Shown in pieces: positions 19,495 through 35,565 of a stretch of DNA of 35,609 nt. The translations under genes were made by a program, and so were the position numbers. Numbering within the stretch: position 1 is the first letter of the stretch; every line of letters starts with the position of its first letter. The stretch lies in NCBI GenBank assembly GCA_001783715.1, contig MFNF01000021.1, positions 1-35,609 of the forward strand, in the 5' to 3' direction. The stretch is from Candidatus Lambdaproteobacteria bacterium RIFOXYD2_FULL_56_26 (GTDB taxonomy: Bacteria > SAR324 > XYD2-FULL-50-16). The notes beneath the pieces are model-generated. The model was not told the origin of the DNA and made no database searches. It saw nothing but the letters and a program-made list of their open reading frames with translations.

Positions 19495-19562
19495 GGTTCT
19501 GTTGACATTGCAAGGGTATGACCTGCATAGAGCTAATATCATAGCTGCTATGGAGGTTTTTT

Positions 19563-20386
19563 GTGACGATAGCCTTTGTCGATGACCAGTGGGAGAAGAT
19601 TTATGCGGTTTTGTCCCAGGACCCTCGTGCCTAAGCAGGCAACGAAGCGGACTGCCGATGTTTTCTAGAAGGGGTCTTGTGGCTGGCCCGCAGCGGTGGG
19701 CAGTGGCGGCTACTACCTGAAAAGTATGGAAAATGGAACAGCATTTACAAGCGGTTTGCCCGATGGCAAGCCCACAGAGTTTTCGAGCGACTCTTTGCCC
19801 ATTTCAGCACCGATGCGGATATGGGGAACCTGCGGATCGACGGCAGGGTGGTGTGGGCTCATCCTTGCTCCGCCGGAGCTTTAAAAAAAGTAGCCCACCC
19901 CAAAAAGCTCCGCTTTCCGGGGACCCCGGTGGCCCACCCCAAAAAGCTCCGCTTTCCGGGGACCCTGGCGGTGGACAGTCTGCCCAAGCGTTAGGGCGCT
20001 CTCGGGGTGGCTTCACCACCAAGGTTCATATCGCCGTGGACGGATTGGGAAACCCGCTACACTTTATCCAGACCGGTGGGCAAGTGCATGATGTAACTCA
20101 GGCTCGTTCGTTGGTTGGGGGTTTTAGGCCAGGCAGTGCTGGCGGACAAAAGGGTACGCATCCTTTGAGTTTAGGCGGCAAATCGAGGAACAGGGAATGC
20201 TGCCGGTGATTCCCCCAAAAGGGAACCTTGGGAAACCGATTTCGTAGGTTACGAAGAGTGGCATTTGGTGGAGTGTTCATCAACAAAATAAAACACTTCC
20301 GCAGGGTCTTTTCAAGATTCGAGAAGTTGGGGGATCGGTACTTGGCCTTCCTCTACTCCGTCCAAGCCCTCATCTGGCTCCGGTGA
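19563..20386 (+). pseudogene. Broken IS5-family transposase
   Basis: The GTG at 19563 opens a frame reading FVDDQWEKIYAVLSQDP, stopped by TAA at 19632-19634. The same frame continues with [24 protein letters not shown] and the first DDE region [13 protein letters not shown]. After an insertion of two 39-base repeats the reading moves to another frame ([33 protein letters not shown]), then another (EEWHLVECFINKIKHFRRVFSRFEKLGDRYLAF), ending IWLR before TGA at 20384-20386. The order is that of DUF4096 plus DDE_Tnp_1 transposases. At least one nonsense codon and two frame changes make it inactive. Confidence 0.85.
19893..19965 (+). repeat. Two tandem 34-base hairpin units with 39-base period inside the transposase
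   Basis: A 34-base unit at 19893-19926 recurs exactly at 19932-19965. Each unit contains CCCC-A-AAAAGC-TCC-GCTTT-CC-GGGG, a nested hairpin. It sits where intact relatives read straight from APKK to GGQ, so it appears inserted after the element arrived. Confidence 0.75.
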
Positions 20387-20422
20387 ATGTCAACAGAACC
20401 TAATATTTTGTATTCCTCTTTA

Positions 20423-20755: not shown

Positions 20756-20771
20756 AAACTCCTGCGGGGAG
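20754..20771 (-). terminator. Possible terminator of the 12-gene operon
   Basis: Read on the minus strand, CTCC-CCGCA-GGAG forms a short stem followed directly by TTTTTATT, about 85 bases after the thioesterase stop. The stem has only four pairs, so the call is weak. It also lies at the 3' end of the convergent HTH gene. Confidence 0.35.
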
Positions 20772-20858
20772 CTTAAGATATTCTCGGCGTTAGAGCCTTT
20801 GCCAACAGCACAGGATACCTAAATCGCCTTGCAGCGGTAAGCTGCCCGGTGTCGCAGG

Positions 20859-21308
20859 TTATTTGCAGGTGCTATTGCGGCCATCGAAGCAACTCCCGAG
20901 GCTCTGATAAGCCTCGGGCAAGCCGGTGAGCAGTTGCCCTTGGTGGTTTGACCAAACGTGCTTAGTTTGGCCGTAGGCAATGGCCCGGCCTATCCCTTCC
21001 TTTTGGATTTCATAGTTGAAATGCGGACGCAACGCTAGGCTCTTAGGGTGTACAAATACCCTGATTTCAAGCCGGTCGCCATATTTGGCCGCCGCACGGT
21101 AGTGGCAACAGGCCTCAATAACCGGAAGGTGGATGCCGCGGTGCTCCGTTTCGGCAACCCTGGCACCGGCCGCTTTCATCAGCTGTTCGCGCGCCAGATG
21201 GAACCAACTAAAATAATTCGAGTGATACACCACCCCCATCAAATCTGTTTCGTTGTACCGAACTTCCAGTTGAAAAATGGTGAGCGGATTCCCGATTGGT
21301 TTCATCAT
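20859..21308 (-). CDS. Hotdog acyl-thioesterase, YbgC/4HBT family
   Basis: A 149-residue 4-hydroxybenzoyl-CoA-thioesterase-type hotdog enzyme with the diagnostic opening VRYNETDLMGVVYHSNYFSWFHLARE. The Asp in ETDLMGVVYH is the catalytic residue in this family. The likely role is release of the finished acyl chain from the carrier protein or CoA. The ATG at 21308 follows the radical SAM stop with one base between; a TTG at 21335 would overlap that gene by 26 bases and is the alternative. It is the last gene of the operon. Similar thioesterases close many aryl-polyene and polyunsaturated-lipid clusters. Confidence 0.88.
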   Translation of the reverse strand: MMKPIGNPLTIFQLEVRYNETDLMGVVYHSNYFSWFHLAREQLMKAAGARVAETEHRGIHLPVIEACCHYRAAAKYGDRLEIRVFVHPKSLALRPHFNYEIQKEGIGRAIAYGQTKHVWSNHQGQLLTGLPEAYQSLGSCFDGRNSTCK

Positions 21309-21309
21309 A

Positions 21310-22794
21310 TCAGATTCGAGTCGATTCCGGGCCAAGTTGGGCCTGTAACTCGGTCATGATCAAATGCCCGGCGTGACGCTCGGGAACTTGGGCTTGCTTC
21401 CAGACTTTTAAGCAACTACGGGCGATCAACTGGTCCAAGGGGGGCGGGTTGTGTAGCATTTTGCGGATAAGTCGCGGCGAGGGCCGGAAAAAATTCTGTT
21501 TTATGCCCTTGAAATAGCCGGATTGTTCTAGTTGCTCGAATAGTGGGGTGTGGGGTTGAACTCCTAGAAAAAACAAATAGGGCTGTACCTGTTTAGGGTC
21601 AAAAATGCTGCAAATGTGATGATAAGCGGCCACCGACTCCCTGAGCGTTGCTTCGGTTTCTGTAGGTGCGTTTAGGCTGAAGTTTAGGATGATATTACCT
21701 TTATAGCCTGCCTCAGCTAGGTTGCGGCAACCTTGATACAAGGCCTCCATTTTAAAACCTGCCTTTAACTGGTCAACGATTTGCTGCGAACCGGAGTTGA
21801 TCGAAACCTCCAGGTCTTCTAACCCCGATTGGACCATGGCTCGGGCAATTTTTTGGTCGATCATGTTGGTGCGAACATAGCCACTCCAAGTGATGGGCAA
21901 ATTGAGCGCTGCCAGCCCTTCTAAAAGCTCCAAACAAGATTGGGCAGACTGGTGCGAAGGGATGAACTGGGAATCGGCAAACCAAAAACGCCGCATCCCC
22001 CACCGGCGGTGGTAACTCTCGATTTCAGAGACTACCTGTTTAGGCTCCCGTTGGCGGATGTTGCGCCCTTCTAGGTGGCTGTAGATGCAATAGGAACAAC
22101 GATGTGGACAGCCGCGCTTACTTTGGATTCCAATGGCAGTGTCTAAATAGCGGGTATAGCCGGGAAATATCTTGGCGGTATAATCTACATCCAGTTTTTG
22201 TTTTTCGTAACGCTCGGTGGGGCAGTGTGGGCCTTGGATCAAACGAACAGAGGGGTGTCCCTGTTCCAAAATATCCTTTAAAGGTCCCTCCCCCTCCCCT
22301 TTGACCCCGACGATCGCTTGGGGCAATTCGGCCAAAATCTCTTCTGAAAATACGCTAAATCCGGCTCCGCCAACTACGGTCAAGCTGCCGGGGGTCTGTA
22401 AATGTCCTTGCCGGATTAGCTTGAGGTTGCCCCTTAATTGGCGGCGGTAAGAAAAGAAATGACCTAACATTTTGGGTGCGATGCGCAATCTTTCCAATGG
22501 ATTTGGGTGGTGATAAAATTTCAGTGCGTCTCTAAGCGGATCATTCCCCTCATGGGGCCCAAAGGTCTGCACATCACGCCAAGAAAAAGCCAGCAGTTTG
22601 GGCCCAAAGGTTTGGATAACTTCTTTCAGTTTCTGGCTACGGTACCTGGGGGCGATTGGAGATAAATCTAAAATTTGCTGCTCGATTTGGGGGAAGTCTT
22701 GGTGGATATGGTTGGCCAAGGTCACGAGCCCAGTAGGGTAAATGGGCCGCTCCGTTGGGAGCCAAACATAGAGAATCCGATGGTATTGGCTCAT
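21310..22794 (-). CDS. B12-binding-domain radical SAM enzyme
   Basis: A 494-residue protein with the two-part layout of cobalamin-type radical SAM enzymes. Residues ~1-170 form a Rossmann-like B12-binding region (RILYVWLPTERPIYPTGLVTLA, LLAFSWRDVQTF, VGGAGFSVFS, VKGEGEG at 164-170). The usual DxHxxG cobalt-ligating motif is not seen. The radical SAM core follows, with RGCPHRCSYC (Cys229, Cys233, Cys236) for the [4Fe-4S] cluster, FADSQF and LEVSINSGSQQI. Relatives perform C-methylations, cyclisations and methylthiolations. Here it probably edits the acyl product. Its start overlaps the exporter stop by four bases. Confidence 0.85.
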   Translation of the reverse strand: MSQYHRILYVWLPTERPIYPTGLVTLANHIHQDFPQIEQQILDLSPIAPRYRSQKLKEVIQTFGPKLLAFSWRDVQTFGPHEGNDPLRDALKFYHHPNPLERLRIAPKMLGHFFSYRRQLRGNLKLIRQGHLQTPGSLTVVGGAGFSVFSEEILAELPQAIVGVKGEGEGPLKDILEQGHPSVRLIQGPHCPTERYEKQKLDVDYTAKIFPGYTRYLDTAIGIQSKRGCPHRCSYCIYSHLEGRNIRQREPKQVVSEIESYHRRWGMRRFWFADSQFIPSHQSAQSCLELLEGLAALNLPITWSGYVRTNMIDQKIARAMVQSGLEDLEVSINSGSQQIVDQLKAGFKMEALYQGCRNLAEAGYKGNIILNFSLNAPTETEATLRESVAAYHHICSIFDPKQVQPYLFFLGVQPHTPLFEQLEQSGYFKGIKQNFFRPSPRLIRKMLHNPPPLDQLIARSCLKVWKQAQVPERHAGHLIMTELQAQLGPESTRI

Positions 22795-25154
22795 GGGGTC
22801 TCCAAAGCTGGGTCTGCGGCCTTTTTAATGCCTTTACGGCGGTCAAACTGTAGCAAAAGTGCTGGCAAGAAAAGGAGGTCGCCGACTAAGGCCGAAGCTA
22901 TGCTGGAACTGAGGAGCAGGCCAAAATAGAAGGTCGGCTTGAAGTAACCCCCCATTAAGACACAAAACCCCATGGCCAGCAGGACCGAGGTGATCACGAT
23001 GGGTGTGCCGATGGATTCGATGCTGTTGCCCACGGCATTTTCCAGATCTTGTCCGCTGGTGCGTAAGGATTTGTAACGGAACATGAAATGGATCGTGTCA
23101 TCTACGGCGATCCCCAGACAAATGCTGGCAACCATTACGGTGGAAACGTCTAAGGGGACCCCCAAGTAGCCCATCAGACCTAAACAAATCGCTATGGGGA
23201 ACAGGTTGGGCGGGATGCTGATCAAACCTCGACGAAGCGAGCCCAGAGAGATAACAAATAAAAGGATGATCACCGCTATGGCCAACAAAAAACTTTTGAT
23301 TTGGCTTTGCAGAAGCATCTCGACCATCTGGTAAAACAAGTTGGCCCGACCGGTAATCCGCACCTGCACTTCTGTGCCGGCAAACTCTCTTTGGGCCAGG
23401 GCGTTGACCTGTTCGATCAATTGGGTGATTTGACTTGAACTGTGCTCTCGCATCCGTATGCTGACAACGGCTTCGCTATAATCAAAATTCACATAGCGGG
23501 AAAGTTCGCTGTCGTTTTCGGCAGCGAGCTCGTAAAGGAACAAAGCCTGTCCGACCTGCTCGCTGGTACTTGGAATCCGTCTTTGATCCGCATTTTCTCC
23601 TTGGATTGCCCAGTGGACCTCTTTTACATAGTCTGTCAGCGAAGAAACCTTCCCGAATTGCGGGATATTGCGCAATTGTTCGGCAAAGAGTTCAAGTTTT
23701 TTTAGTAAGGCCGGGTCTTTAAAGGCCTGTGGATGCGAAGTCTTTAAAAATACCGTCAAGGGCATAGCCCCAGAAAAACCCTCTTCAATGCGGCGGTTGT
23801 CTTGGAATGTCCGGCTGTCTTTTGGGAAATATTCCAGAAAATTGGTCTCGGTCTTGATTTGTAAGATCCCCGGAATTGAAGCCGCAATAATTAAGAGCAT
23901 CAACAGGATCAGCTTATTGGGATGCATCAAAATCACCTGGCGCAACTTGGAGAGGAATTTGGAGAACCAAGAGAAAACCGTCGGATTGACTCCGGCGGAT
24001 CCGGAACTTTTAAGCAGTAGCAACCCCACCGGCACCATCGCCATGGTCAATAAAAAATCAGCCGACACACCAAAAGCAGCCAAGAGACCAAACTCTTTTA
24101 CCGGAGCGATATCGCTGGTAAAAAGTGATAAAAAACCGATAGCTGTCGTTAAAGAAGTCATGAAGCAGGGTGCCATCGTAAGGCGAAAGGTCCGGCGCAG
24201 CATTTTATATTTTTGCAACCAAGTAGGATCATGGTAGCCCGCTTGAATCATTTGATCGTGGTAGGTTGCGTAAATGTGGATAATGTCGGCTACGGCGATG
24301 GTGACCAACAGAGGCGGTAAAAGGGTCGAAACCATGGTCAGGCTAATGCCCAACCAAGCCATAAGCCCAAGGGTCCAGATGAACGGCAGTATGATTTCTA
24401 GGCCTGCCATGCCCGATAAGGTCCAAGAGCGGTAATAAACCAGACAAAATGAAAAGATGATCCCCGCTGATAACGGCAACAGCCAAGCGAGATCCCTTTT
24501 GGTGTAGTGGTTCACATCGGCCTCCACCACATAAGGCCCCGCGAAACTGGGCTTGAGCTCTTGAAATTTTGGCCTTTGAATCAATTCCCTAATTTGGGCG
24601 ATCAATTTGGAGCGGAGTGCTGCGTCCTTGGCGCTTCCGGTTTCTAACGGGAAAACCACCAAAGCACCAAGCCGCTGGTCTTTGGAAAATAACTCCTCTT
24701 GTAATATCTGGTTTTGGGTCAGGTCATCATGGAATCTCTTGATGGCCTCTGGATCGAGTTGGGTTGGATCTTTGAGTAACTTGCGGACATCTAAGTAGGT
24801 GCCATTGCCGCGGATGGTTTGAGCGTTGGTGAGGCTGTAAACCTTCTCGGTTTCGGGCATTTGCTCAATGCTTTTGGTTAGCTCGTCGGTCCGCTCTAGA
24901 TAGGCGCGATCCATCGTGCCTTGGGGGGCCTCTAGGACCAGCAACATGATTCCATCGCTCTCGAAGGATTTTACCATTTCCCGGTAGGTGAGCACCTCGG
25001 GGTCATCGGGGGAAAAAAAGCGGTCTGTGCTGTTGTTTAATGTTAAATTAGGCAACCGCAGACAGAGCAGAACGGTCAAAAGGGCGATCAACAGCATGAC
25101 ACCCCAGGGATTGCGCAACACCAGGCGGCTAAACCAATTAGTGAATTTTTTCAT
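22791..25154 (-). CDS. RND/MMPL-family lipid exporter
   Basis: A 787-residue inner-membrane protein with duplicated halves: helix 1 near 18-35, a periplasmic loop to ~220, five helices to ~390, helix 7 near 420-437, a second periplasmic loop, and five helices to the C-terminus (about 12 in all). The helix-4 equivalents read VTIAVADIIHIYATYHD and ICLGIAVDDTIHFMFRY, with the acidic residues expected for proton relay. This is the single-chain MMPL/HpnN type associated with export of hopanoids and other lipids, not the tripartite drug-pump type. It lies next to the beta-barrel and LolA-like genes, a combination that recurs in lipid-to-outer-membrane transport. Confidence 0.9.
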   Translation of the reverse strand: MKKFTNWFSRLVLRNPWGVMLLIALLTVLLCLRLPNLTLNNSTDRFFSPDDPEVLTYREMVKSFESDGIMLLVLEAPQGTMDRAYLERTDELTKSIEQMPETEKVYSLTNAQTIRGNGTYLDVRKLLKDPTQLDPEAIKRFHDDLTQNQILQEELFSKDQRLGALVVFPLETGSAKDAALRSKLIAQIRELIQRPKFQELKPSFAGPYVVEADVNHYTKRDLAWLLPLSAGIIFSFCLVYYRSWTLSGMAGLEIILPFIWTLGLMAWLGISLTMVSTLLPPLLVTIAVADIIHIYATYHDQMIQAGYHDPTWLQKYKMLRRTFRLTMAPCFMTSLTTAIGFLSLFTSDIAPVKEFGLLAAFGVSADFLLTMAMVPVGLLLLKSSGSAGVNPTVFSWFSKFLSKLRQVILMHPNKLILLMLLIIAASIPGILQIKTETNFLEYFPKDSRTFQDNRRIEEGFSGAMPLTVFLKTSHPQAFKDPALLKKLELFAEQLRNIPQFGKVSSLTDYVKEVHWAIQGENADQRRIPSTSEQVGQALFLYELAAENDSELSRYVNFDYSEAVVSIRMREHSSSQITQLIEQVNALAQREFAGTEVQVRITGRANLFYQMVEMLLQSQIKSFLLAIAVIILLFVISLGSLRRGLISIPPNLFPIAICLGLMGYLGVPLDVSTVMVASICLGIAVDDTIHFMFRYKSLRTSGQDLENAVGNSIESIGTPIVITSVLLAMGFCVLMGGYFKPTFYFGLLLSSSIASALVGDLLFLPALLLQFDRRKGIKKAADPALETP

Positions 25155-25172
25155 GTACTGGCCTCAAAATAG

Positions 25173-26504
25173 TTAAAGGTGGTATTTCATCCCGAGAAAA
25201 ACTCGGCTGTGCTGTCGGTATCGACCCAGGGGGGCTGTGTCTTTGCCCCAGATCCAGTCGGCTCCAACCTGAAAATGCAATTGGTCGGTCCATCTGTGGG
25301 ATTCTTCAAGATGCAAAAGCCCGTCTTTGTTTTCGATGCCCACTACTTGCCGAAAAATGTGCTTGTATCGTTGGTTGTGGGTTTCTTTGCTGTAGTCGAT
25401 CATAAAAAAACTTTGGCTGCGGTCTTGGGTTTGTCCCTTCTGGTAGTCGCTGATATAGCGGCCATAGAGCTCGCTCGAAAGGTCCCCGTCGAATAGCGGA
25501 TACCGCCAGGCCAACAAGCCGTAGTCAATATTGTGTGGCTCCTGGAACATGGGCGCTTCAGAGGCAAGGTTGAGGCGCTTGGCCTGAAAATCCCGGCGCA
25601 GTTCAATATCCCATTGGTGTTTGTCCCAGGTGTAAGAGAAGGTCGCTACCGTGGAGGGGACTCGTTGGCGGGTCTGGGATATTTCTAACAAGCTTTTGAA
25701 GTTGAGGATCACAAAGTCGGCCCCAAAGGAGGGCTCCCGTTCATATCCCTCAAAGTGCATCAAGGAAAAATCGAAGGCCCCTAGGAAAGCCCGCAGTCTA
25801 AGATAACCTTGGTAGGTGGCGGGCTGTTCGGTTTGGTCCGGTACCACTTGGCAGGCCTGGCCGGCGGCTTCAAATAGATTGCAGGGGTTTTGTTCCGGCT
25901 GATACCAGAGGCTATTTTGACCCGGATATTGATTGAGGCGATCATCTTGGATCAATCCAAAGTCAAGGTCCCAGGCGGTTCGGGTGTACCTGATCCGCAG
26001 GGCATCCAGCGGCGTACGGTAGCGGGATTTGTCGGTAACCACCGCCTGCTGGAAGTCCACCGGGGTGACCATATCGGCAACCTGGAAGTAGTTGGAGCGG
26101 CCCAAGATAATTTCTTGTCGGCCCAGTTCCAGGCTCCCTTGGCTCTGTTCGTATTTGATGGTGGCCCAGCGCACCTCTGAACGGGGAGTTGGTACCCCTT
26201 CAAGATCCTGATAGGATTTGCCTCGATAATGCAGGTCTTCTTCTTGGAGCCCTTCGAGCCTCGCGCCCCAGGCATCCCACCAAATTTCCAAGCCTGCTTT
26301 CAGTGCCCACAGGTTTTGTTCCGACTGGTTTTTTCCCCTCCCCTGCGCCGCCTGCCAATAAACCTCGCCGTTGGTCTCTACATCCAACGATCCGCCGCTG
26401 ACTGAACCGCCCCAAATGGAGAAAGCGAAAAACGAGAGAGCCAAAAAGCGCAAAGATGCGCCAAGGTTTAGCTTCAATAGAGTGCGCATTTTGTGGTCCA
26501 TCAA
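25173..26504 (-). CDS. Outer-membrane beta-barrel-like protein of the exporter module
   Basis: A 443-residue protein with an N-terminal hydrophobic export signal (ASLRFLALSFFAFSIWGGSVSGGS) and then long runs of alternating strand-forming residues rich in Trp, Tyr and Arg. LELGRQEIILGRSNYFQVADMVTP and the following RTPLDALRIRYT resemble DUF1302-like barrel proteins that accompany MMPL exporters. It ends RVFLGMKYHL. It is the likely outer-membrane partner or acceptor of the exported lipid. It starts four bases inside the end of the LolA-like gene and ends 18 bases before the exporter gene. The family assignment is moderate; the barrel nature is better supported. Confidence 0.72.
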   Translation of the reverse strand: MMDHKMRTLLKLNLGASLRFLALSFFAFSIWGGSVSGGSLDVETNGEVYWQAAQGRGKNQSEQNLWALKAGLEIWWDAWGARLEGLQEEDLHYRGKSYQDLEGVPTPRSEVRWATIKYEQSQGSLELGRQEIILGRSNYFQVADMVTPVDFQQAVVTDKSRYRTPLDALRIRYTRTAWDLDFGLIQDDRLNQYPGQNSLWYQPEQNPCNLFEAAGQACQVVPDQTEQPATYQGYLRLRAFLGAFDFSLMHFEGYEREPSFGADFVILNFKSLLEISQTRQRVPSTVATFSYTWDKHQWDIELRRDFQAKRLNLASEAPMFQEPHNIDYGLLAWRYPLFDGDLSSELYGRYISDYQKGQTQDRSQSFFMIDYSKETHNQRYKHIFRQVVGIENKDGLLHLEESHRWTDQLHFQVGADWIWGKDTAPLGRYRQHSRVFLGMKYHL

Positions 26505-27316
26505 TCCAGGTCGTTGCGTTGGAACTCGGGGTATGAACGGCGCTCCAATTGCTGGACCGTGAACAATTGTGGCTCCACCTCAGGGTGTCCAAGCTGCAAC
26601 TTTTTTATATCAATGGTGGTTTGATGGTTCTCCAGCAGGTTTTTCATTACCGAAGTCTGCACGACCCAGATTTTTTCAGGGTCACTTTGGATCAATTTTA
26701 GGGCCTGATACCGCTTCTGCAGCAAGCCTCGTTGGTCATAAAAGTCGCTACGCAAAATCACCCAACTGTCCGGTAAAACCCAATGCAACATGCGCCCGTA
26801 AGCCGAAGAATCGAAGTTTTTGGGAATCGATTCCACCAAGTAGGTCCGGCGTCCGTCTAATTCCTCGGACTTAATGAAGCGGTGTTCGTCGGCCTCGACG
26901 TTGCGGGTGAGAATATCCTCATAGGTGTAATCGGTCCCCATGAAGCTACGGCTGCGCTCGGAACTGGATATCTTTCGAACTTGTTTGTAGGCGGGCAAAT
27001 AGAGGTATTGGTCATCATCCCCTTCCTGCTTTTCCAGGTTCAAAAAGGTAGTACGGTTGATGTCCTTTGGTTCGGTGAAACGGATCAAGCGCAGTTCAAG
27101 ACCCTCGGTTTTGCTCGTCAAAGTTAAGGTCTCACGCAAACGCGTCTCTCCTTTGGGGTTCACCAGCGTCAATTGGGCAGCTTCCAGGCGGGCCTTGCCT
27201 CGGTCGCGATCATACACTTTCTGCATGATTGTTTTGCCGTTAAGTTCTTGTGCGACGGCCAGCCCCGAGTGAACCGTTAAAAGAAAACTAATAGCCAGAT
27301 AGAGGAATGGTTTCAT
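26501..27316 (-). CDS. LolA-like outer-membrane lipoprotein-sorting protein
   Basis: A 271-residue periplasmic protein with a signal peptide (cut probably after AVAQ at ~23). It carries the pattern of the LolA-like family found beside MMPL/RND exporters: LRLIRFTEPKDINRTTFLNLEK, DDDQYLYLPAYKQVRKI and the hallmark SFMGTDYTYEDI at 124-135. Members have a LolA/LolB half-barrel fold suited to holding acyl chains in the periplasm. The likely role is to carry the operon's product from exporter to outer membrane. It overlaps both neighbours by four bases. Confidence 0.9.
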   Translation of the reverse strand: MKPFLYLAISFLLTVHSGLAVAQELNGKTIMQKVYDRDRGKARLEAAQLTLVNPKGETRLRETLTLTSKTEGLELRLIRFTEPKDINRTTFLNLEKQEGDDDQYLYLPAYKQVRKISSSERSRSFMGTDYTYEDILTRNVEADEHRFIKSEELDGRRTYLVESIPKNFDSSAYGRMLHWVLPDSWVILRSDFYDQRGLLQKRYQALKLIQSDPEKIWVVQTSVMKNLLENHQTTIDIKKLQLGHPEVEPQLFTVQQLERRSYPEFQRNDLD

Positions 27317-28107
27317 GAGTTATTTTCCTTGCTAAAAGAAATGCGGTACAAACGTTCGTCAAATAGGAGTTCGCATTTCGGATTGAGTGCTTGGCCGGGA
27401 ACCAGGTCCATCGGAATGGTAATGGTATCCCGATCCTTGTAAAAGATGCCCAGTTTAGGGAAATCCTCCACGCTCTTGGCCGCCGATTCGGTTTCGTCCA
27501 CTACGACTACTTGACCACCAGGACGGACAACGCGCAGTATTTCTTCCAGGCTTCGCCGCGGGTCATTAAAGAAATTAAGTCCACCGTAATGGTATACAAC
27601 TTCAAAATAATTGCTGGCAAATGGCAATTCCTCCGCTGCGGCGCAGAAGAGATTGGCATGTTTCTTCCACTTTGCGAGGTTTTTCTGGCAGCGCTTTAAC
27701 ATGCCGATGGAGAGGTCCAGCCCGGTATAGTGGACTTCATCAGGGATAACGCGCCGGTTGGCACCTGTGCCCGCACTGACTTCAAGCAGCTGCATCTGGG
27801 GGTGAAACTCGATACAGTCCAAACATTGTTTGCGCATTTCACTTTCTTTGACTCCAATATAGGCCCAGCCAATATTGGAGGCGACATCATAGGAATTGGC
27901 GAACTGGTCGTAAAGATGGCGGAACTTTTTGTTTTTCCCCTCCAGGGACTCCGCTTGAACCATCTGCACAATCCCATCGATACATTGGTAGCTCTGGCCG
28001 GTCTGCTGATTAAAAAAGCGGCCTTGGCCGGGCTGTTTACCTGGTTGCCACTCAAGGGTCGATTGGTCTTTAGTATCAATAATATGATTCATTATCTGAT
28101 GTCTCAT
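27313..28107 (-). CDS. Class I SAM-dependent methyltransferase (UbiE/COQ5-like)
   Basis: A 264-residue enzyme with SAM motif I LLEVSAGTGANRR (107-119), acidic motif II TGLDLSIGML, a post-II region CAAAEELPFASNYFEVVYHYGG and motif III ILRVVRPGGQVVVVDE. The first ~50 residues (QTGQSYQCIDGIVQMV) look like a degenerate Trm112-type zinc-ribbon leader, seen in some UbiE relatives. It probably O- or C-methylates the acyl product or its head group. Overlaps of four bases on both sides place it firmly in the operon. Confidence 0.88.
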   Translation of the reverse strand: MRHQIMNHIIDTKDQSTLEWQPGKQPGQGRFFNQQTGQSYQCIDGIVQMVQAESLEGKNKKFRHLYDQFANSYDVASNIGWAYIGVKESEMRKQCLDCIEFHPQMQLLEVSAGTGANRRVIPDEVHYTGLDLSIGMLKRCQKNLAKWKKHANLFCAAAEELPFASNYFEVVYHYGGLNFFNDPRRSLEEILRVVRPGGQVVVVDETESAAKSVEDFPKLGIFYKDRDTITIPMDLVPGQALNPKCELLFDERLYRISFSKENNS

Positions 28108-30137
28108 GTCGTTCTCTCTGATGAAATGGATTCAAAATTTTGGGAAAAATGATGGGACTGACTCAGGATTGATTTCACATTCACCCCTTCAGGCAAATGG
28201 TCCGGGTGCCCCAGAATAGCATGGGGCCGGTTATCGGTTCGCAGGCCTTCGGCCAAGCCGTTAGAATAGGTTTGACCCATGGCAAAAATGATCGACGCTG
28301 CTTTGATTCGTTCGGTATGGTTTTTATAGGTCACCAACAAAGCATCGGGCTCCGCTTCAAAGTGATCAAAGCTTACCACCGAGGTTCCCAGGGCGCTCAC
28401 CTTGTGGAGCAGGATCCAACGGGTTGTCGGCCCGACCCCCCGCCCTAGCCGCTTGTCTGCACGCCTTAAGAGGGTTACCGGTGCCGCTTCCCTCGGTGCC
28501 GCTTCCCATTGGGACCATTGGCGAAGATAGGCTAGGGCATTGTGGTTGCCTCGGAGGTTGAGGCTGGGGATAAAGGCCGCCATTTCAAGGGCAATTCCGC
28601 CACCACCAAGAACCACCACGGGCTCGGGCAAGGGGACTTGCTCGCTCAAAACTTGACGATAATCTTTAATCACCCCTTTAAAACCAGGTAGTTGCAAGCG
28701 TCTAGGCTGACCCCCTTGGGCCAATAAATAAAAATCGAAGGCTGCACAAGCCGCAGATATGGGGTCTATTTGGTGGCCTAAACGGTACCTAACTCCATGC
28801 CGTTGGCCCTGCTGGGAAAAGTAATGGACCAAACGCCCAAAATCTTGTTTGGACGGAATCTGGGCGGCCAGGTGTAGATCCCCGCCCAGCGATAAGCTCT
28901 GCTCAAAAACCTCCACTTCGTGGCCCCTTTGGGCCAACCAACAAGCAGAAGCCAATCCGGCAAGCCCCGCTCCGACCACCGCAATCCGTCGGCTCTTCTT
29001 GGTGAGGACCGGTTTTTGGCCCTCCAATAAACTCAGGCACCTCGGGTTTAAGATGCAACCCACTTTCTTCCCGGTCAGGGCATGGTCCAAGCAAGCCTGA
29101 TTGCAGGCAACGCAAGGTCGGATTTGCTCAACATGGTTCTGCCGGGTCTTCTTGACGAATTCCGGATCGGACAACAGCGGACGCCCCAAGCTAACCATAT
29201 CGGCAGCCCCCTGGCCTAAGACCTGTTCGGCTTGGTAGGGGTCCGCAATCCGGTTACTCAAGGCGACCGGAATCCCTTGAGCCCGTTGGCGGATTGCCGA
29301 GACCACCGGTGCGAAGGCCGCCGGGGGAACCGACATAGCGATGGTAGGCACCTTGGCTTCATGGCTTCCGATCCCAACGTTCAAAAGGTCCACCCCTTTT
29401 TGTACCACTTGATCAACCAGCCATTCTACTTCGGTCCAAGTCAGCCCCTGCTCATCGAGGTCCAAGGCGGGAAACCGAAAAATTAAAGGGAACTCGGGGC
29501 TCAACTGGGCCCGCACCGCTTCGAGCACTTCTAAAGTAAAGCGAGCCCTATTGGCCAAGCTACCGCCCCAAGCATCGGAACGCTGGTTGAAAGTTTTGCT
29601 TAAAAACTGGTGCAGCAAAAAACCTTGGCTACCCACGATTTCGATGCTGTCATATCCCGCCGCAACGGCCAGGGCCGCGCTTTGGGCAAAATCATTGATA
29701 GTGCGCCTAATCTCTGTTTCTTCTAACGCCCTAGGTCGATACAAAACTCCGGGTGCTCTCAGCGACGAAGAGGAGACATTTTTTCCGTGGAAGGCTTCAC
29801 GTCCAAAATGGCAAATCTGCAAAGCAATGCGGCCGCCTTCTTGGTGCACCGCTTCGGTGTAAGCAAGGTGCTTATCGACCTCTGTTTCACCTGCTAAAGA
29901 CAAGCCTAAATTTAATCTGCTGCGTCCCTCTTGGTTGGGGCTACAGCCGCCAACCATCACCAAGCCGACTTCTCCGGCGGCTCTTTGCCTCAGGAAATGG
30001 GCCATCACCGCTTCACGGTTCGGCTGTTCTTCTAAGCCCAGGTGCAAGCCGCTCATCATCACCCGATTGGGCAGTGTTAGGCCGCGCAACTTGATGGGTG
30101 CCAGCAAGTGGTTAAAGGGGTATTGTGTAGGTTCCAT
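28104..30137 (-). CDS. FadH-like 2,4-dienoyl reductase (FMN/[4Fe-4S]/FAD) with changed active site
   Basis: A 677-residue iron-sulfur flavoenzyme collinear with Escherichia coli FadH: an FMN TIM barrel (~10-330), the cluster motif CVACNQACLDH...CILNPRC (Cys342, 345, 349, 361) and an FAD/NAD(P) domain starting VVGAGLAGLAS (388-398). FadH reduces 2,4-dienoyl-CoA with NADPH. The catalytic His is kept (SHEAKVPTIA, His259), but the conserved Tyr of GSEGYLINEFL is Phe173 (GSQGFLLHQFL), so proton delivery should differ. In a cluster with its own carrier protein it may act on polyene acyl-ACP. It overlaps the methyltransferase by four bases and lies nine bases after the ketoreductase. Confidence 0.9.
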   Translation of the reverse strand: MEPTQYPFNHLLAPIKLRGLTLPNRVMMSGLHLGLEEQPNREAVMAHFLRQRAAGEVGLVMVGGCSPNQEGRSRLNLGLSLAGETEVDKHLAYTEAVHQEGGRIALQICHFGREAFHGKNVSSSSLRAPGVLYRPRALEETEIRRTINDFAQSAALAVAAGYDSIEIVGSQGFLLHQFLSKTFNQRSDAWGGSLANRARFTLEVLEAVRAQLSPEFPLIFRFPALDLDEQGLTWTEVEWLVDQVVQKGVDLLNVGIGSHEAKVPTIAMSVPPAAFAPVVSAIRQRAQGIPVALSNRIADPYQAEQVLGQGAADMVSLGRPLLSDPEFVKKTRQNHVEQIRPCVACNQACLDHALTGKKVGCILNPRCLSLLEGQKPVLTKKSRRIAVVGAGLAGLASACWLAQRGHEVEVFEQSLSLGGDLHLAAQIPSKQDFGRLVHYFSQQGQRHGVRYRLGHQIDPISAACAAFDFYLLAQGGQPRRLQLPGFKGVIKDYRQVLSEQVPLPEPVVVLGGGGIALEMAAFIPSLNLRGNHNALAYLRQWSQWEAAPREAAPVTLLRRADKRLGRGVGPTTRWILLHKVSALGTSVVSFDHFEAEPDALLVTYKNHTERIKAASIIFAMGQTYSNGLAEGLRTDNRPHAILGHPDHLPEGVNVKSILSQSHHFSQNFESISSERTT

Positions 30138-30146
30138 GAGGAAGTT

Positions 30147-30896
30147 TTACATCGACAAGCCGCCGTCTACATTAAGCGTTTGCCCCACCAGATAACTGGC
30201 CGCAGGCGAAGCTAAAAAGGAGACCACTTTGGCCACTTCAGAGGCTTTACCCGCTCTACGCAGGGGGCAAAAGTGTTGGATTGTCGTTTGGACTAATTGG
30301 CTTATCTGAGGGTTGTTCACTGCCGCTTGATACATTTCCGATTCCACATAACCTGGGGCCACGCAGTTGACCCGAATACCCGAGGGGGCCACTTCGCGCG
30401 CTAGCGACCGAGTTAAGGCGATAATCCCTCCTTTAGAGGCGCAATAATTGGCTTGACCCACCTGCCCGATCACTGCGGCTACTGAGGAAATATTGACGAT
30501 AACGCCCGATTTTCGTGCGATCATTGATTGCAGGAACACTTTGCAGCAATGGAAGGTGCCGTTCAGGTTGACGTTGATCACGTCCTTCCAATCCTCCTCT
30601 TTGAGTAGGGAAAACATTTGGTCTCTAAGAATCCCCGCATTGTTGATCAGTGTGTGGACCCACATCTTTTGCTCACGTATTTTTCGGCCCAGCTGCTTGA
30701 CCTGTTCGAAGTCGGAAATGTCACATGGAAACGCAAGGGCATCTCCTCCTTTATCGGTTATTTCTTTGACCGCATCTTCGGCTTCACGATGCCGAGTAGC
30801 GTAGACCAAAAGGACCGGCATGCGCTCAGCTAGTTCGAGTGCGATGGCGCGGCCAATGCCCCGGCTGGCTCCGGTGATTAGGGCGACTTGTTTCAT
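30147..30896 (-). CDS. 3-oxoacyl-ACP reductase (FabG-like SDR)
   Basis: A 249-residue classical short-chain dehydrogenase that reduces 3-ketoacyl-ACP to 3-hydroxyacyl-ACP. It has the nucleotide motif TGASRGIGRA (8-17), NNAG (85-88), catalytic Asn110, Ser138, Tyr151 and Lys155 (NISSVAAV...ANYCASKGG), and the C-terminal YLVGQTLNVDGGLSM typical of FabG. Length is normal. It supplies the reductive step of the operon's chain-elongation cycle and stands between the ketosynthase pair and the dienoyl reductase. Confidence 0.93.
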   Translation of the reverse strand: MKQVALITGASRGIGRAIALELAERMPVLLVYATRHREAEDAVKEITDKGGDALAFPCDISDFEQVKQLGRKIREQKMWVHTLINNAGILRDQMFSLLKEEDWKDVINVNLNGTFHCCKVFLQSMIARKSGVIVNISSVAAVIGQVGQANYCASKGGIIALTRSLAREVAPSGIRVNCVAPGYVESEMYQAAVNNPQISQLVQTTIQHFCPLRRAGKASEVAKVVSFLASPAASYLVGQTLNVDGGLSM

Positions 30897-30911
30897 GACG
30901 TTCCTTTAGGT

Positions 30912-32114
30912 TTAATTGGATGCTGGTGCTAAGGTCATCAAGGCGTGATTCCCGAAGGGGTCGCGGCTGCTGAGAAAACTCCAGCTCGGCCCACTCTGCT
31001 GAAGGCTTGCCTCTTTTAAACGGCTACCCTGAGGGCGCAAGGGCGGGCGCAAGGGGCTATGCCCAGCCAAAACCCAGGCGGATTCAGCAACTTGAAAGGC
31101 CGAACCGGCGGCTTCGGTTTCTCCAGTCCAGGCTTTTAGGGCGCTGATCGGTGGAGCATAGTCTGGCCCGTTCCAAAGCGTAGCAAGTGCTTCGGATTCG
31201 ATTTGATCATGCGGCATATTGCCTCCGCTTGCTGAGATGCTGACCCAGGCACAGCGGTTTGTTTCTTGACGTGACCATACCTGCTGGCAGCACTTGGCAT
31301 AGGACCCCGAGTCCAGACTGCGGCCAAATTCTTGCTCTTTGATCAAAGCCAGCGGTTGTGCCCCGCGCTCTAGGGCGTGGTTTAACTCTTCTAAAACCAC
31401 CACACAGACACCTTCAGCGGGGACTACAAGACCCGGCTGGTTCCCGAGAAATCGAGGATCAGTTTGGTCGAGATGATTTTTGTAATAAGACAGGGAGTGA
31501 CCTAACGATAACCTAGAAAGACATTCGACCCCACCGGCCAACATACTCCGGCAACGGCCCAGCCGGATCAAATCCGCCGCACGCATGATCGCATGAATAC
31601 CGGACACATGGTTGACTGCGAGGGTATTGCTGTAGCCTTTCAACCCAAAAGTAATGGCCGCCTGCCCAGCCGCCGCATTCCGCGCTAAAAGCGGGAAGTG
31701 GCCTGGATTGATTTTTTGGAGCTGCTTTTCTAAAACCGGGGAGGCAAATCTTTGGAATCCCCCGAATTCGGGCCGCGAGGTGCCAAAGATCAAACCCAAC
31801 TCTTCTTTTTTCGAAGTATCGCTAGGGTCTAATTTGGCAAACTCCAAGGCCTGTCCTACGGCGCAGACCGACATGATTAGAAAACGATCCAAAGCCCTTA
31901 ATTGTCTTTGGGGAAGATATTTTTCGGCCGAAGGGGCTGCAATCGGGGCGATCCAGGCTTTTTCAGAGGGCCGTTCGCTGCTTTCGGGCCAAGGCACGAA
32001 ATTCTTCGAGTCTTCGGCAGGGCTCGCAACAATCTGCTGCCAATCATTCCCAAGGTTGCATAGGGCTCCAATGCCGGTAATGGCGACTTCAATTGGGCGC
32101 ATCTGAGAACTCAT
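30912..32114 (-). CDS. Inactive ketosynthase homologue, chain-length-factor-like
   Basis: A 400-residue thiolase-fold protein related to FabF but without its catalytic residues. The nucleophile Cys position is His169 (AVNHVSGIHAIM in place of a TACASG motif), the first active-site His is Ser296 (SASGGN for AHGTAT) and the second is Glu332 (WTGETEAAG for IGHCMGAAG). Lys327 is kept. Start ITGIGALCNLG and the LIRLGRC dimer-side helix are preserved. Such partners pair with an active ketosynthase in type II polyketide and aryl-polyene systems and set chain length. It overlaps the active ketosynthase gene by four bases, which fits a KS-CLF heterodimer. Confidence 0.87.
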   Translation of the reverse strand: MSSQMRPIEVAITGIGALCNLGNDWQQIVASPAEDSKNFVPWPESSERPSEKAWIAPIAAPSAEKYLPQRQLRALDRFLIMSVCAVGQALEFAKLDPSDTSKKEELGLIFGTSRPEFGGFQRFASPVLEKQLQKINPGHFPLLARNAAAGQAAITFGLKGYSNTLAVNHVSGIHAIMRAADLIRLGRCRSMLAGGVECLSRLSLGHSLSYYKNHLDQTDPRFLGNQPGLVVPAEGVCVVVLEELNHALERGAQPLALIKEQEFGRSLDSGSYAKCCQQVWSRQETNRCAWVSISASGGNMPHDQIESEALATLWNGPDYAPPISALKAWTGETEAAGSAFQVAESAWVLAGHSPLRPPLRPQGSRLKEASLQQSGPSWSFLSSRDPFGNHALMTLAPASN

Positions 32115-33337
32115 TGAGGTTGGGTAAAGAGGATACTGGCGTTGTTACCGGCAAAACCAAAGGAATTTGAGAGGGCGCTGCGCACCTGCATTTTTCTGGC
32201 ATCGTTGGTTACCAAATCCAATTTGCAATAGTCCTCACGCTCTTGGAAATTGATGGTTGGTGGGATCACCCCCTGGTGGATGCTCAGCACCGTTGCGACC
32301 GCCTCAAGCGCTCCGGCAGCACCCATGCAATGCCCGATCATTGACTTGATTGAGCTGACCGCTAAATGCGGGGAATGCGCCTCAAAAACACTCTGTAACG
32401 CCAGAGTTTCGGAACGATCGTTGTGTATGGTCGCCGTACCATGTGCGTTCACATAATCGACTTGTTCCTTTAAACAGTCGGCATCGGCCAATGCGCGGAA
32501 GATGGCGCGGGCTTCGCCGGAGCCGTCTTTTGATGTTGCCGTAAGGTGTGAGGCGCTATTACTAGAGCCGTATCCTGCTACTTCGGCATATATGTTGGCC
32601 CCACGAGCTTTAGCAGACCGGTAGGACTCAAAAACTAAAAAAGCCGCTCCTTCACCGATGGCGAACCCGCTGCGGTTTTTGTCAAAAGGCCTTAGGCAAT
32701 CTTGGGTAATAGAAAATACGGAGTTAAATCCCGCATGAATCACTTCACTGATGATATCACCGCCGCCAACCAATACTAATTCGCAACGACCCAGACGGAT
32801 TAGGTCTAAGGCAAAACCCAAGGCATCTGTCCCTGAAGCACAGGCAGTAGAGCTGAGGCTAGCTGGACCGCTGATTCCCAAACGGTCCGCAAGGTGAGCT
32901 AGTTGGTAGGCAACAAGGGTGGGAGCGACAGACACCGGGGTTTGTCCGTTCAAGTCGCCTTGAAAATATTTGCGGCCCAATATTTCGTAATTGCGCGAAC
33001 TCGAACAGAGCGTGCCCACCATCAAGCCCGCCTGTGCACCTAGGTTTTCTAGCTCTGACTTGCCCAGACCTGCATCGCTTAGCGCCTCTTCTGCGGCTAG
33101 GTATGCGTAAAAGGTTGCATCTTCTTCGGGGGAGCCTGCTTGGTTTCTTAAGCTTAAATTGTTTCTGATTCCAGAAGGTATTTCGGCCCCTAACGAACTT
33201 TTGTAGGCCGCCGCATCAAAGACTTCAATGGGGCGTATCGCAGAACGCCCCTGGATCAAGTTTTCCCAAAAAGTATTACGCCCCAGGCCAAAAGGTGAAA
33301 CCACCCCCATACCGGTCACTACAACAGGGCTTCTCAT
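32111..33337 (-). CDS. Beta-ketoacyl-ACP synthase II (FabF-like), intact
   Basis: A 408-residue ketosynthase that condenses malonyl-ACP with the growing acyl chain. The triad is complete: Cys166 in STACASGTDALG, His299 in VNAHGTATIHND and His336 in MIGHCMGAAGA, with Lys331. It starts VVVTGMGVVSPFG and ends SNSFGFAGNNASILF as in FabF. Next to it is a homologue without the triad, so this is the catalytic half of a likely heterodimer. It overlaps the dehydratase and the partner gene by four bases each. Sequence alone does not fix starter unit or product length. Confidence 0.95.
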   Translation of the reverse strand: MRSPVVVTGMGVVSPFGLGRNTFWENLIQGRSAIRPIEVFDAAAYKSSLGAEIPSGIRNNLSLRNQAGSPEEDATFYAYLAAEEALSDAGLGKSELENLGAQAGLMVGTLCSSSRNYEILGRKYFQGDLNGQTPVSVAPTLVAYQLAHLADRLGISGPASLSSTACASGTDALGFALDLIRLGRCELVLVGGGDIISEVIHAGFNSVFSITQDCLRPFDKNRSGFAIGEGAAFLVFESYRSAKARGANIYAEVAGYGSSNSASHLTATSKDGSGEARAIFRALADADCLKEQVDYVNAHGTATIHNDRSETLALQSVFEAHSPHLAVSSIKSMIGHCMGAAGALEAVATVLSIHQGVIPPTINFQEREDYCKLDLVTNDARKMQVRSALSNSFGFAGNNASILFTQPQ

Positions 33338-33849
33338 GGAATCTCCGCTTGCTTGAGGTGGGTCAGTAGGTCGGTTTTCAACGCCAGCCCTAAAATCAAT
33401 TCCACCGTGGCGGCTTTGATTCCATCGACTGTTGCAACCGCATTGGCTCGGATCGCCTGGTTTCCGTAAGGTATCATTTTAACCTCAAACTCAACTAGAT
33501 TGTCCGCAAAGACGGGCCGGTGGATGAGCGTTTTACGAATTCCACCCAAAAGGCCCAAAACTTCTTCAGTTTGATGCCCTTTCAGGTAGCTATCAGCCTG
33601 TTCTTGAGGCAAAGCCTCAAACTGCTGGCGCAAAGTTACGGCAGCTAATTGGGCGGAGGCTTCCACCAAATAGATGCCCGGCACCAGATGAAATTGTGGA
33701 AAGTGACCTTCGAAAACCGGATGTTCCTTTTGCCAGCAATAGAAACCGCGGCTATGATATTTTTCAATTATTTCAGCGCAGTCTAAGAACAATATCGGTT
33801 CCCGGTGCGGGATCAACTGCTTAATTTGTTCTTTGTCGAGCCAAGTCAT
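33334..33849 (-). CDS. Hotdog 3-hydroxyacyl-ACP dehydratase (FabZ/FabA-like)
   Basis: A 171-residue hotdog protein with IPHREPILFLDCAE, then VFEGHFPQFHLVPGIYLVEASAQLAA. His49 (GHFP) and Glu63 (VEASAQ) match the catalytic pair of FabZ-type dehydratases. It removes water from 3-hydroxyacyl-ACP to leave a double bond. With no enoyl reductase of FabI type in the operon, repeated use would give conjugated polyenes unless the FadH-like enzyme reduces them. It starts four bases after the carrier-protein gene and overlaps the ketosynthase by four. Confidence 0.85.
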   Translation of the reverse strand: MTWLDKEQIKQLIPHREPILFLDCAEIIEKYHSRGFYCWQKEHPVFEGHFPQFHLVPGIYLVEASAQLAAVTLRQQFEALPQEQADSYLKGHQTEEVLGLLGGIRKTLIHRPVFADNLVEFEVKMIPYGNQAIRANAVATVDGIKAATVELILGLALKTDLLTHLKQAEIP

Positions 33850-33853
33850 CGAT

Positions 33854-34186
33854 TTAAACCCCTAAGCTGTCGTCTTTTTGCTGCATCTTGGCTAGGTCTG
33901 CAACATCCCGCTGCATGAACTGTTCGACCGTTTCGGTATCGTATTCATCCTTGATGTATTGAGCGATGCCGCGCAGGTTCCCCACCTTTTTAATATCCAC
34001 ATCCTCAGGCATGTCCACTCCCAAAAACTCATGTAAGGTGATCACCATTTCAAAAGCTTCTAGGGAATCCAAGCCGACTTCATCCATCAAGTCTGCCGTT
34101 GGGTCGATTTGGGTCGAAGCATCCAAATGTAAAAAAGAAACTAAGAAATCACTAATTTTTTGTTCTAAACTCGATTGATCAATCAT
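33854..34186 (-). CDS. Acyl carrier protein
   Basis: A 110-residue acidic protein with the phosphopantetheine site VGLDSLEAFEMV (Ser41) and four-helix ACP pattern. It is longer than a standard 78-residue ACP because of an extra C-terminal tail (QFMQRDVADLAKMQQKDDSLGV). It is the first gene of the operon, with an AGG about nine bases before the ATG. It is the dedicated tether for the downstream ketosynthase, reductase and dehydratase. No phosphopantetheinyl transferase is present, so a host enzyme must load it. Confidence 0.92.
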   Translation of the reverse strand: MIDQSSLEQKISDFLVSFLHLDASTQIDPTADLMDEVGLDSLEAFEMVITLHEFLGVDMPEDVDIKKVGNLRGIAQYIKDEYDTETVEQFMQRDVADLAKMQQKDDSLGV

Positions 34187-34356
34187 TTTTTTTACCTGGA
34201 TGGCAATTGATGTAAATGTTTGTTCAGAGCAAGACTACAGGGTTTTTAAAGGCAGTAAACAACAAAATTTTTTGTGGCAAATGAGCCTACATAGGCTGTC
34301 TGTATGGGTCCTATAGGTGTCACATTGACAGCATGAAATAGGTGCATCTGGTAAGG
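34187..34356 (-). promoter_or_regulatory. Upstream region of the lipid-type operon with several inverted repeats
   Basis: The region must hold the operon promoter. Three short inverted repeats stand out: TGTCA-CAT-TGACA at 34318-34330, CCTATAGG at 34310-34317 and AGCCTA-CA-TAGGCT at 34284-34297. On the minus strand TTGCCA (complement of 34274-34279) is a -35 candidate, but no good -10 follows. The operator role of the repeats is inference. Confidence 0.35.
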
Positions 34357-34694
34357 TGGTCAGCAAAATTTGGACTATCGGCAAAGCTCTGATCGTCTTC
34401 CAGCAAGGAGAAAGGCTGAGCAACAAACGACAACAATACAAAGCTGAATTCAAAACGAAAGCTGCGTTGGAGGCAACCAAGGGTAAGCGAACGATTTCCG
34501 AACTTTCAGCTTTGTGCCAGATCCACCCGACCCTGATCAACACTTGGAAAAAGTCCCTGGTCCAGGGTGCAACCGGGGTCTGTGAAAAGGGCAAAAAGCA
34601 AGTCGCCAAACAAGGCCCGAGTGAAGAAGAGCTCTACAAGGAGATCGGCAAATTCAAGATGGAGCAGGACTTTTTAGGATATATCCGCAATTAG
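34357..34694 (+). mobile_element. Left part of a truncated IS3-family element
   Basis: TGGTCAGCAAAATTTGGAC at 34357 resembles the left inverted repeat of IS3-family elements (TG start, TTGGAC core), and the truncated orfA follows. No orfB or right end is present; the next sequence belongs to an IS5-family transposase. Confidence 0.45.
34416..34694 (+). pseudogene. Truncated IS3-family transposase OrfA
   Basis: The peptide LSNKRQQYKAEFKTKAALEATKGKRTISEL...IHPTLINTWKKSLVQGA...EELYKEIGKFKMEQDFL matches IS3-family OrfA (HTH plus coiled coil). The natural start would be ATG at 34416, here CTG, with AAGGAG five bases upstream; the frame is open back to GTG at 34356. It runs out right after MEQDFL, where family members continue into LKKK and the OrfA/OrfB overlap. 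OrfB is absent. The gene was cut by arrival of the next element. Confidence 0.82.
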
Positions 34695-34745: not shown

Positions 34746-35565
34746 ATGGAAAAAGTAAAATCCTGGGAAGTGTCGGATGCGTTTTGGGAGAGGGTGGAAC
34801 CCCTGATCCCCAAGCCGGAGCGGGACCCAAGCAAGTTGTATCAAAGGAAGGCTGGTGGGGGTCGGAAGCCACTCCCGCCCAAGCAGATTTTTGAAGGAAT
34901 TGTGTTTGTTCTGCGAACCGGTTGCCAGTGGAAATCGCTCCCCAAAGAGCGGTTTGGTAGCGCCAGTTCAATCCATGGCTACTTCCAGAAGTGGTCGGAG
35001 GCTGGATTCTTCCTGGCGCTTTGGCAGGCAGGTTTGGCGGAATATGATGCGATGGAGGGGATCGCTTGGTCCTGGCAGGCGATAGACGGGACGATGGTCA
35101 AGGCTCCCTTGGCGCAGGATGCCGTTGGACTGGGGCCAACGGATAGAGGGAAAAAACGGTCAATGCCGCAGGCATTGGCCAGTCTTGAGCCGCTGTTTCA
35201 AAACTCCCAAACGCCATATGCTGGTGGACGGGCGTGGAGTCCCGTTGTCGATCGTCGTGACCGGAGCAAATGACCATGATGTCAGCCAGCTTGAGGCGGT
35301 CTTGGCCGGGGTGGTGATCAAAAGGCCCAAGCGCCTCCAGCATCTATGTGCAGACAGGGGGTACTTTGGAAAATTGGCGGCCTGGATCATGCGCTTCTAT
35401 GACTATGCGCCGAAGGTTGACCCAAGAGGTGCAGCAGAAAAAAGAAGCCCCAGGAAGCGGGCGAGAAGATGGGTGGTTGAAGTGGTTCATGCTTGGCTAA
35501 ACCGCTTCCGCAAACTCCTAGATAGTGTAGTCACGAGATTGTGGCCCAAAGAAAAATGCACCTGA
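34746..35565 (+). pseudogene. Frameshifted IS5-family transposase
   Basis: The first frame reads SWEVSDAFWERVEPLIPKPERDP, the RKPLPPKQIFEGIVFVLRTGCQWKSLPKERF block and the first Asp in WQAIDGTMVKAPLAQ, typical DUF4096 plus DDE_Tnp_1. After GPTDRGK the frame changes at a six-A run (35151-35156); the second frame carries KRHMLVDGRGVPLSIVVTGANDHD, LCADRGYFG and RRWVVEVVHAWLNRFRKLL. An extra stretch of about 48 bases separates GKNG from KRHM compared with relatives. The end (DSVVTRLWPKEKCT) departs from the family, so the 3' end is also damaged. It belongs to a different IS5 lineage from the one at 19495. Confidence 0.85.

Follow-up and report, generated by a model that had tools for sequence, protein, structure and literature searches.

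A 12-gene operon was found on the minus strand (34186-20859) of the window, a stretch of 35,609 nt that represents contig C21 of a host genome of 3.08 Mb (97% complete). With a confidence somewhat better than even, it is read as an acquired gene set encoding a type II polyketide/fatty-acid synthase of the highly reducing kind together with a dedicated exporter, and its likeliest product would be an exported lipid, either a methylated polyene or a partly reduced acyl chain. Each part of the operon was of a known type, and the combination was absent from every other genome searched. The features of the operon, in the direction of transcription, were as follows.

33854..34186, minus strand: acyl carrier protein (ACP), 110 aa, with the Ser in GLDSLEA (PF00550, E 2e-8, and motif)
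33334..33849, minus strand: FabZ-like 3-hydroxyacyl-ACP dehydratase (DH), 171 aa (NF000582 FabZ, 71.6 bits, equivalog cut-off 113; PF07977)
32111..33337, minus strand: ketosynthase (KS), Cys-His-His intact (TIGR03150 FabF, 384 bits, cut-off 494; active-site alignment)
30912..32114, minus strand: chain-length-factor-like (CLF) KS homologue, three catalytic residues replaced (PF00109, E 1e-19; alignment)
30147..30896, minus strand: FabG-like ketoreductase (KR), SDR (PF00106; TIGR01830, 276 bits)
28104..30137, minus strand: FadH-like FMN/FAD/4Fe-4S flavoenzyme, 677 aa (Oxidored_FMN and Pyr_redox; 1ps9, 418 bits)
27313..28107, minus strand: class I SAM-dependent methyltransferase, UbiE/MenG-like fold (PF08241, E 7e-19; TIGR01934, 63 bits, cut-off 158)
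26501..27316, minus strand: LolA-like periplasmic lipid carrier with signal peptide (PF17131, 171 bits; second match DUF1329, PF07044, 42 bits)
25173..26504, minus strand: putative outer-membrane beta-barrel, no Pfam family (suggested by signal-like N-terminus, distant homologue and position)
22791..25154, minus strand: HAE3-family MMPL/RND transporter, 787 aa (TIGR00921, 251 bits, cut-off 352; PF03176)
21310..22794, minus strand: Slr0320-like B12-binding radical SAM protein, C229-x3-C233-x2-C236 (NF045585, 355 bits, cut-off 775; motif)
20859..21335, minus strand: acyl thioesterase of the hotdog fold (4HBT_2), which could also start at the ATG at 21308 (PF13279, E 5e-16)
20756..20774, minus strand: possible intrinsic terminator about 85 nt beyond the last stop codon (such sites occur at chance level across the region)

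The original prediction of a single 12-gene operon was borne out by 12 intact, uninterrupted, co-directional open reading frames (ORFs) and by their tight spacing, all junctions lying between -26 and +18 nt. Its statement that four-base overlaps prevail applied to about half of the junctions and not to most of them: 4-bp ATGA overlaps were present at five junctions, or at six if the putative barrel starts at TTG, and the others were gaps of 4-18 nt, apart from the thioesterase junction, which is a 26-nt overlap with the TTG start or a 1-nt gap with the ATG at 21308. Families were assigned by Pfam and NCBIfam profiles to 11 of the 12 proteins in the predicted parts list, the exception being the barrel. 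An ammonia-lyase, an acyltransferase and an AMP-ligase were absent from the operon, as had been predicted.

The synthase core was examined by the alignment of active sites. The catalytic Cys-His-His was kept in the KS, whereas His, Ser and Glu occupied the corresponding positions in the CLF, in agreement with the predicted pair of one active and one CLF-like KS. For the CLF, the KS-like N-terminal domain was detected by Pfam without a Ketoacyl-synt_C match, which, together with the replaced catalytic residues, is as expected for a chain length factor. Highly reducing type II polyketide synthases (PKS) making polyenes are defined by KS-CLF plus KR and DH (PMC10698177); judged from family assignments and active sites, the set of ACP, FabZ-like DH, KS, CLF and KR is the composition of such a polyene-forming synthase. 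The likeness to the ishigamide-type systems and to the aryl-polyene core lies in a KS-CLF pair with an inactive CLF, KR, DH, ACP and, the FadH-like flavoenzyme aside, the lack of an enoyl reductase, whereas the window KS shared about 31-40% identity with every KS in the comparison, and the FadH-like enzyme, the B12 radical SAM protein and a dedicated exporter are additional in the window. In a tree of 40 sequences, built without ishigamide-type references, the KS and CLF could be assigned to no clade, so that the KS is at most a candidate member of the highly reducing type II PKS clade. A cispentacin-like, cyclising reading was dropped on the scores of the DH (71.6 for FabZ versus 27.9 for AmcE). 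The predicted joining of a type II, polyene-type core to an export module was thus supported by family content and active sites.

KR and FabZ-like DH are present without a dedicated enoyl reductase, a role in which the FadH-like flavoenzyme could act, although its proton donors are replaced. This enzyme was aligned with Escherichia coli FadH 2,4-dienoyl-CoA reductase (1ps9) across residues 10-644 (418 bits), and the active-site His252 and the 4Fe-4S cysteines were retained, but E164 was changed to Q and Y166 to F. In E. coli FadH, Glu164 and Tyr166 serve as alternative proton donors, and both were kept in 1ps9 and in three ordinary plasmid FadH proteins. The likeness to FadH therefore held over the full length but not at the two proton donors, which makes dienoyl reduction of the ordinary kind doubtful. 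Reduction lacking the usual protonation, isomerisation, or catalysis in the oxidising direction may be what it performs. FadH matches on plasmids were 37-40% identical and all of the normal type, and no Nitrospirota match was obtained at E<=1e-90.

The best NCBIfam match of the radical SAM protein was the family of Synechocystis Slr0320 (NF045585, 355 bits), below the equivalog cut-off of 775, and its Nitrospirota relatives scored 443-481 bits on the same profile. By this best family match and by full-length similarity, the protein is assigned to the Slr0320-like group in the broad sense. Relatives were sought in 84,980 species with two short words, whose choice was steered by an alignment with rows 2 and 3 synthetic; tblastn with the actual window protein then confirmed the matches. 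The best 80 of a larger group were 38-44% identical and nearly all from Nitrospirota, the Nitrospirota homologues reaching 40-44%; no comparable match was obtained in the other 51 genomes of the phylum, and no relatives among plasmids or in viral contigs. In the tree of these proteins, the window protein was placed on a long branch beside Leptospirillum-like sequences with weak support (80/52).

The Slr0320-type proteins and their Nitrospirota homologues share the B12/radical SAM architecture of the window protein, whose gene sits in an acyl-synthesis operon whereas the homologues sit behind the methyl-plastoquinone methyltransferase MpqE; the rest of the operon was absent from those Nitrospirota loci, among the matches listed. 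A methyltransferase gene lies directly upstream of the Nitrospirota radical SAM genes, and both of the two tested matched MpqE (NF052510), with scores of 402 (above the cut-off of 335) and 321 (just below). By tblastn, an MpqE-type gene was located directly before the radical SAM gene in 71 of the 75 loci with enough upstream sequence, among the matches listed, which are not independent events because the loci are related to one another. Nitrospira makes methyl-plastoquinones (PMC12324825), and quinone methylation was proposed earlier for Slr0320 (PMC8065906). We infer C-methylation of quinone-type rings as the activity of the Slr0320-type family, from which the operon would have borrowed its own enzyme.

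That pairing with MpqE, the literature on methyl-plastoquinones and the UbiE-like fold of the window methyltransferase would also fit an aromatic or quinone-type ring lipid, with the methyltransferase and the Slr0320-like enzyme methylating the ring as in methyl-plastoquinone formation. This reading is unlikely: keto groups needed for ring formation would be removed by KR and DH, and the operon has no cyclase, prenyltransferase or hydroxylase. Moreover, the window methyltransferase was about 23% identical to MpqE, with 45 bits on a profile whose cut-off is 335, and far below the UbiE/MenG equivalog cut-offs, and the host genome already encodes its own UbiE/MenG.

The original prediction had also pointed to ladderane gene sets, a link that was not supported by the radical SAM protein, which gave 146 bits on the ladderane/lipid family TIGR04072 (cut-off 360) and was akin to Slr0320 and the Nitrospirota proteins instead. 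In the proposal for Kuenenia and Desulfotalea, type II fatty-acid synthase genes, the KS among them divergent, occur together with genes for a methyltransferase and a radical SAM protein of the B12 type (PMC2649909), a co-occurrence shared by the window, and true TIGR04072 members of two sister genomes (423 and 426 bits) lie in other clusters, with KS, KR and ACP genes. A ladderane or polyunsaturated-hydrocarbon pathway, with cyclisation or desaturation of the polyene by the radical SAM enzyme, is nevertheless highly improbable and the assignment was rejected, as the radical SAM protein is of another family and a phytoene-desaturase-like (CrtI-like) gene is absent.

The aryl polyene (APE) gene list comprises ACP, DH, KS, CLF, KR, methyltransferase, thioesterase, LolA-like protein and RND pump (PMC8253772), and these gene types are all represented in the window. 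The type II core, methyltransferase, thioesterase, LolA-like protein and RND pump are accordingly shared with apeA-R of E. coli CFT073, but detectable homology between the shared classes was confined to KS/CLF and KR, which were the only window proteins matched by E. coli APE queries (31-36%). No window match at E<1e-3 was obtained with the E. coli APE ACPs, dehydratases, aryl-ACP synthetase, glycosyl/acyltransferase, LolA-like or MMPL proteins, and an aryl-ACP synthetase, an acyl/glycosyltransferase, a second ACP and DUF3261 are missing from the window. Because the same queries recovered the APE cluster of Cupriavidus almost gene for gene but little of the window, the operon is not an APE cluster, which agrees with the prediction that it is no standard one; with the aryl starter genes absent, the APE assignment fails. 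A divergent APE/xanthomonadin-like cluster, for which the aryl starter is supplied from elsewhere in the genome, would be favoured by the common gene types and by a separate APE-type KS/KR pair on contig 57 of the host (KS 45% and KR 49% to E. coli APE). It is improbable, since the window KS lay outside the APE KS clade of the 40-sequence tree and the FadH-like and B12 radical SAM proteins are not encoded by APE genes.

For the export module, TIGR00921 was the best match of the HAE3 pump, below its cut-off, and PF17131 and PF07044 of the LolA-like carrier passed theirs. The third protein gave no Pfam match even at E<=1, DUF1302 included, and its single-sequence AlphaFold model was uninformative (pLDDT 31), so that 'barrel' is a putative label drawn from a signal-like N-terminus and from 23% identity to a Photobacterium protein encoded beside LolA-like and MMPL genes. 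Its gene occupies the same position as DUF1302 in the MMPL/LolA-like/DUF1302 trio of Prevotella. On the Photobacterium megaplasmid, ACP, KS and KR genes are joined to barrel-LolA-MMPL genes with different tailoring (an aminotransferase there), which indicates that exporters of this type are coupled to type II chain synthesis more than once. AmeABCD of Castellaniella defragrans is an HAE3 exporter, and Ame-type trios export monoterpenes (PMC6394551). The HAE3 pump, a LolA-superfamily (DUF1329) periplasmic protein and an outer-membrane protein are shared with its AmeA/AmeB/AmeD part, but the window has no AmeC homologue, its barrel has no DUF1302 match, and its exporter is linked to acyl synthesis, whereas Ame is linked to monoterpene catabolism. 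The outer membrane is the putative destination of the product, as suggested by the family of the exporter.

The exporter comparisons also bear on the reading that three separate functions are simply co-transcribed, namely a specialised fatty-acid synthase, a general exporter of hydrophobic compounds and an unrelated methylation enzyme. The trio stands alone in Prevotella, monoterpenes are the cargo of Ame-type trios, and an Slr0320-like gene is stand-alone in one other locus (L122); but the synthetic, exporter and radical SAM genes of the window are translationally linked, have a common low GC3 and form one block bounded by insertion sequences, and this reading is quite unlikely.

No syntenic copy of the operon was detected in 51 relatives in the phylum, in 72,556 plasmids or in two other phyla, each represented by about 400 genomes. 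These sets are what the full-set and CLF searches covered, and within them the predicted status as an uncharacterised operon stands. In the 52 genomes of the phylum and in 396 Nitrospirota genomes, the best CLF match outside the window was about 31% identical, and no match was returned from 395 genomes of the phylum to which a Syntrophaceae hit belongs; for the empty results, the window itself was the sole positive control. The neighbourhoods of 18 Nitrospirota CLF matches proved to be KR-KS-DH-KS clusters of a different make-up, of which some included a CrtI-like gene, and only generic KS/CLF matches (27-29% identical) were found on plasmids.

The operon differed in composition from its surroundings, with a GC3 of 0.575 versus 0.765 in neighbouring housekeeping-type genes and a GC of 0.516 versus 0.573-0.585 in five other stretches of the same genome. 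It is flanked by the following elements.

19489..20406, no strand assigned: decayed insertion sequence left of the operon, with 21-nt terminal inverted repeats (95%) and disrupted ORFs
34356..34694, plus strand: transposase orfA (HTH_Tnp_1), truncated, right of the operon (PF01527, E 1e-4, slightly short of the cut-off)
34746..35565, plus strand: IS4/5-family transposase in two ORFs, right side (PF13340, E 3e-23), with 75% copies elsewhere in the genome

Because of the low GC3 and the insertion sequences on both flanks, the operon was probably acquired horizontally, and recently as the simplest reading.

For the preferred reading, a polyene-type synthase with its own exporter, the following route is proposed from the family composition. 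The ACP-bound chain would be extended by KS-CLF, and each new unit would be turned into an enoyl by KR and DH, leaving a conjugated polyenoyl-ACP because a dedicated enoyl reductase is lacking. The conjugated chain may then be modified by the altered FadH-like flavoenzyme through partial reduction, double-bond shift or oxidation, and methyl groups would be added by the class I methyltransferase and the Slr0320/plastoquinone-type B12 radical SAM enzyme, for which an sp2 or ring carbon is the probable target. The acyl chain would be released or proofread by the thioesterase, and the lipid would be carried to the outer membrane by the HAE3 pump, the LolA-like carrier and the putative barrel. The operon has no gene for a starter unit, a phosphopantetheinyl transferase or a lipid-anchoring acyltransferase, and the route as drawn is therefore incomplete. 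The operon could instead use FabI of the host, which would give ordinary saturated or monounsaturated chains. A further step, that the product represents an outer-membrane lipid of a new, exported class, in which a plastoquinone-type B12 radical SAM enzyme C-methylates the type II polyketide chain and a FadH-like flavoenzyme no longer acting as a plain dienoyl reductase reshapes it, is put forward tentatively and with considerable doubt.

If the reading is true, the range of polyene-type II synthases would widen to include decorated, exported lipids of a new kind. The operon would also be a small and testable system in which to study a FadH without proton donors and an Slr0320-group B12 radical SAM enzyme. 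The Slr0320 group spans cyanobacteria and Nitrospirota, and in Nitrospirota it travels with MpqE, a pairing through which a part played by the Slr0320 family in plastoquinone-type quinones can be tested directly.

The last 92 bases of the contig (35518-35609) were identified as a repeat, with copies of 99-100% identity at about 10 further places. Since many of these copies lie where other contigs of the source genome end, the contig was taken to break within the repeat. The style of its genes and its overall statistics hint that the source genome may belong to the phylum SAR324/Lambdaproteobacteria.

Ketosynthase (KS) genes and related clusters were located elsewhere in the source genome and in other genomes, as follows.

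Loci with KS genes outside the contig
L041:8362-10696, source genome, contig 57: KS and ketoreductase (KR) of aryl-polyene type, 45% (KS) and 49% (KR) to E. coli
L044, source genome, contig 27: KS domain (best E 1e-73) in an open frame of about 2749 aa
L040, source genome, contig 14: KS domain in an open frame of about 1319 aa
L033:222-9184: KR-DH-KS-CLF cluster with CrtI-like oxidoreductase, ACP and MMPL exporter
L131:3253-17360, Photobacterium sp. DA100: ACP, several KS/CLF, two SDRs, barrel, LolA-like carrier and MMPL
L029:6029-15745: KR/KS/ACP/DH/TE cluster with TIGR04072 radical SAM protein
L030:8929-16100: KR/KS/ACP/DH/TE cluster with TIGR04072 radical SAM protein

The remainder of an aryl polyene cluster was not found near the KS/KR pair on contig 57, and the two long KS-bearing frames are type I PKS or PUFA-synthase-like genes. 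The radical SAM proteins of L029 and L030, in two genomes from the family of the source genome, are bona fide TIGR04072 'ladderane' members (423-426 bits).

KR-DH-KS-CLF clusters with a CrtI-like oxidoreductase were common in the Nitrospirota sample; L150, L153 and L163 each carry one, and these three and L033 have no synteny with the 12-gene operon. The Photobacterium cluster, without annotation in its record, also encodes a class III aminotransferase fusion of 978 aa.

Among the matches listed to the B12 radical SAM protein of the operon (L045-L124), the Slr0320-like gene was located directly 3' of an MpqE-type methyltransferase gene at 71 of 75 Nitrospirota loci. The Slr0320-like protein is a candidate for a missing partner in methyl-plastoquinone methylation, and perhaps also in plastoquinone methylation in cyanobacteria.
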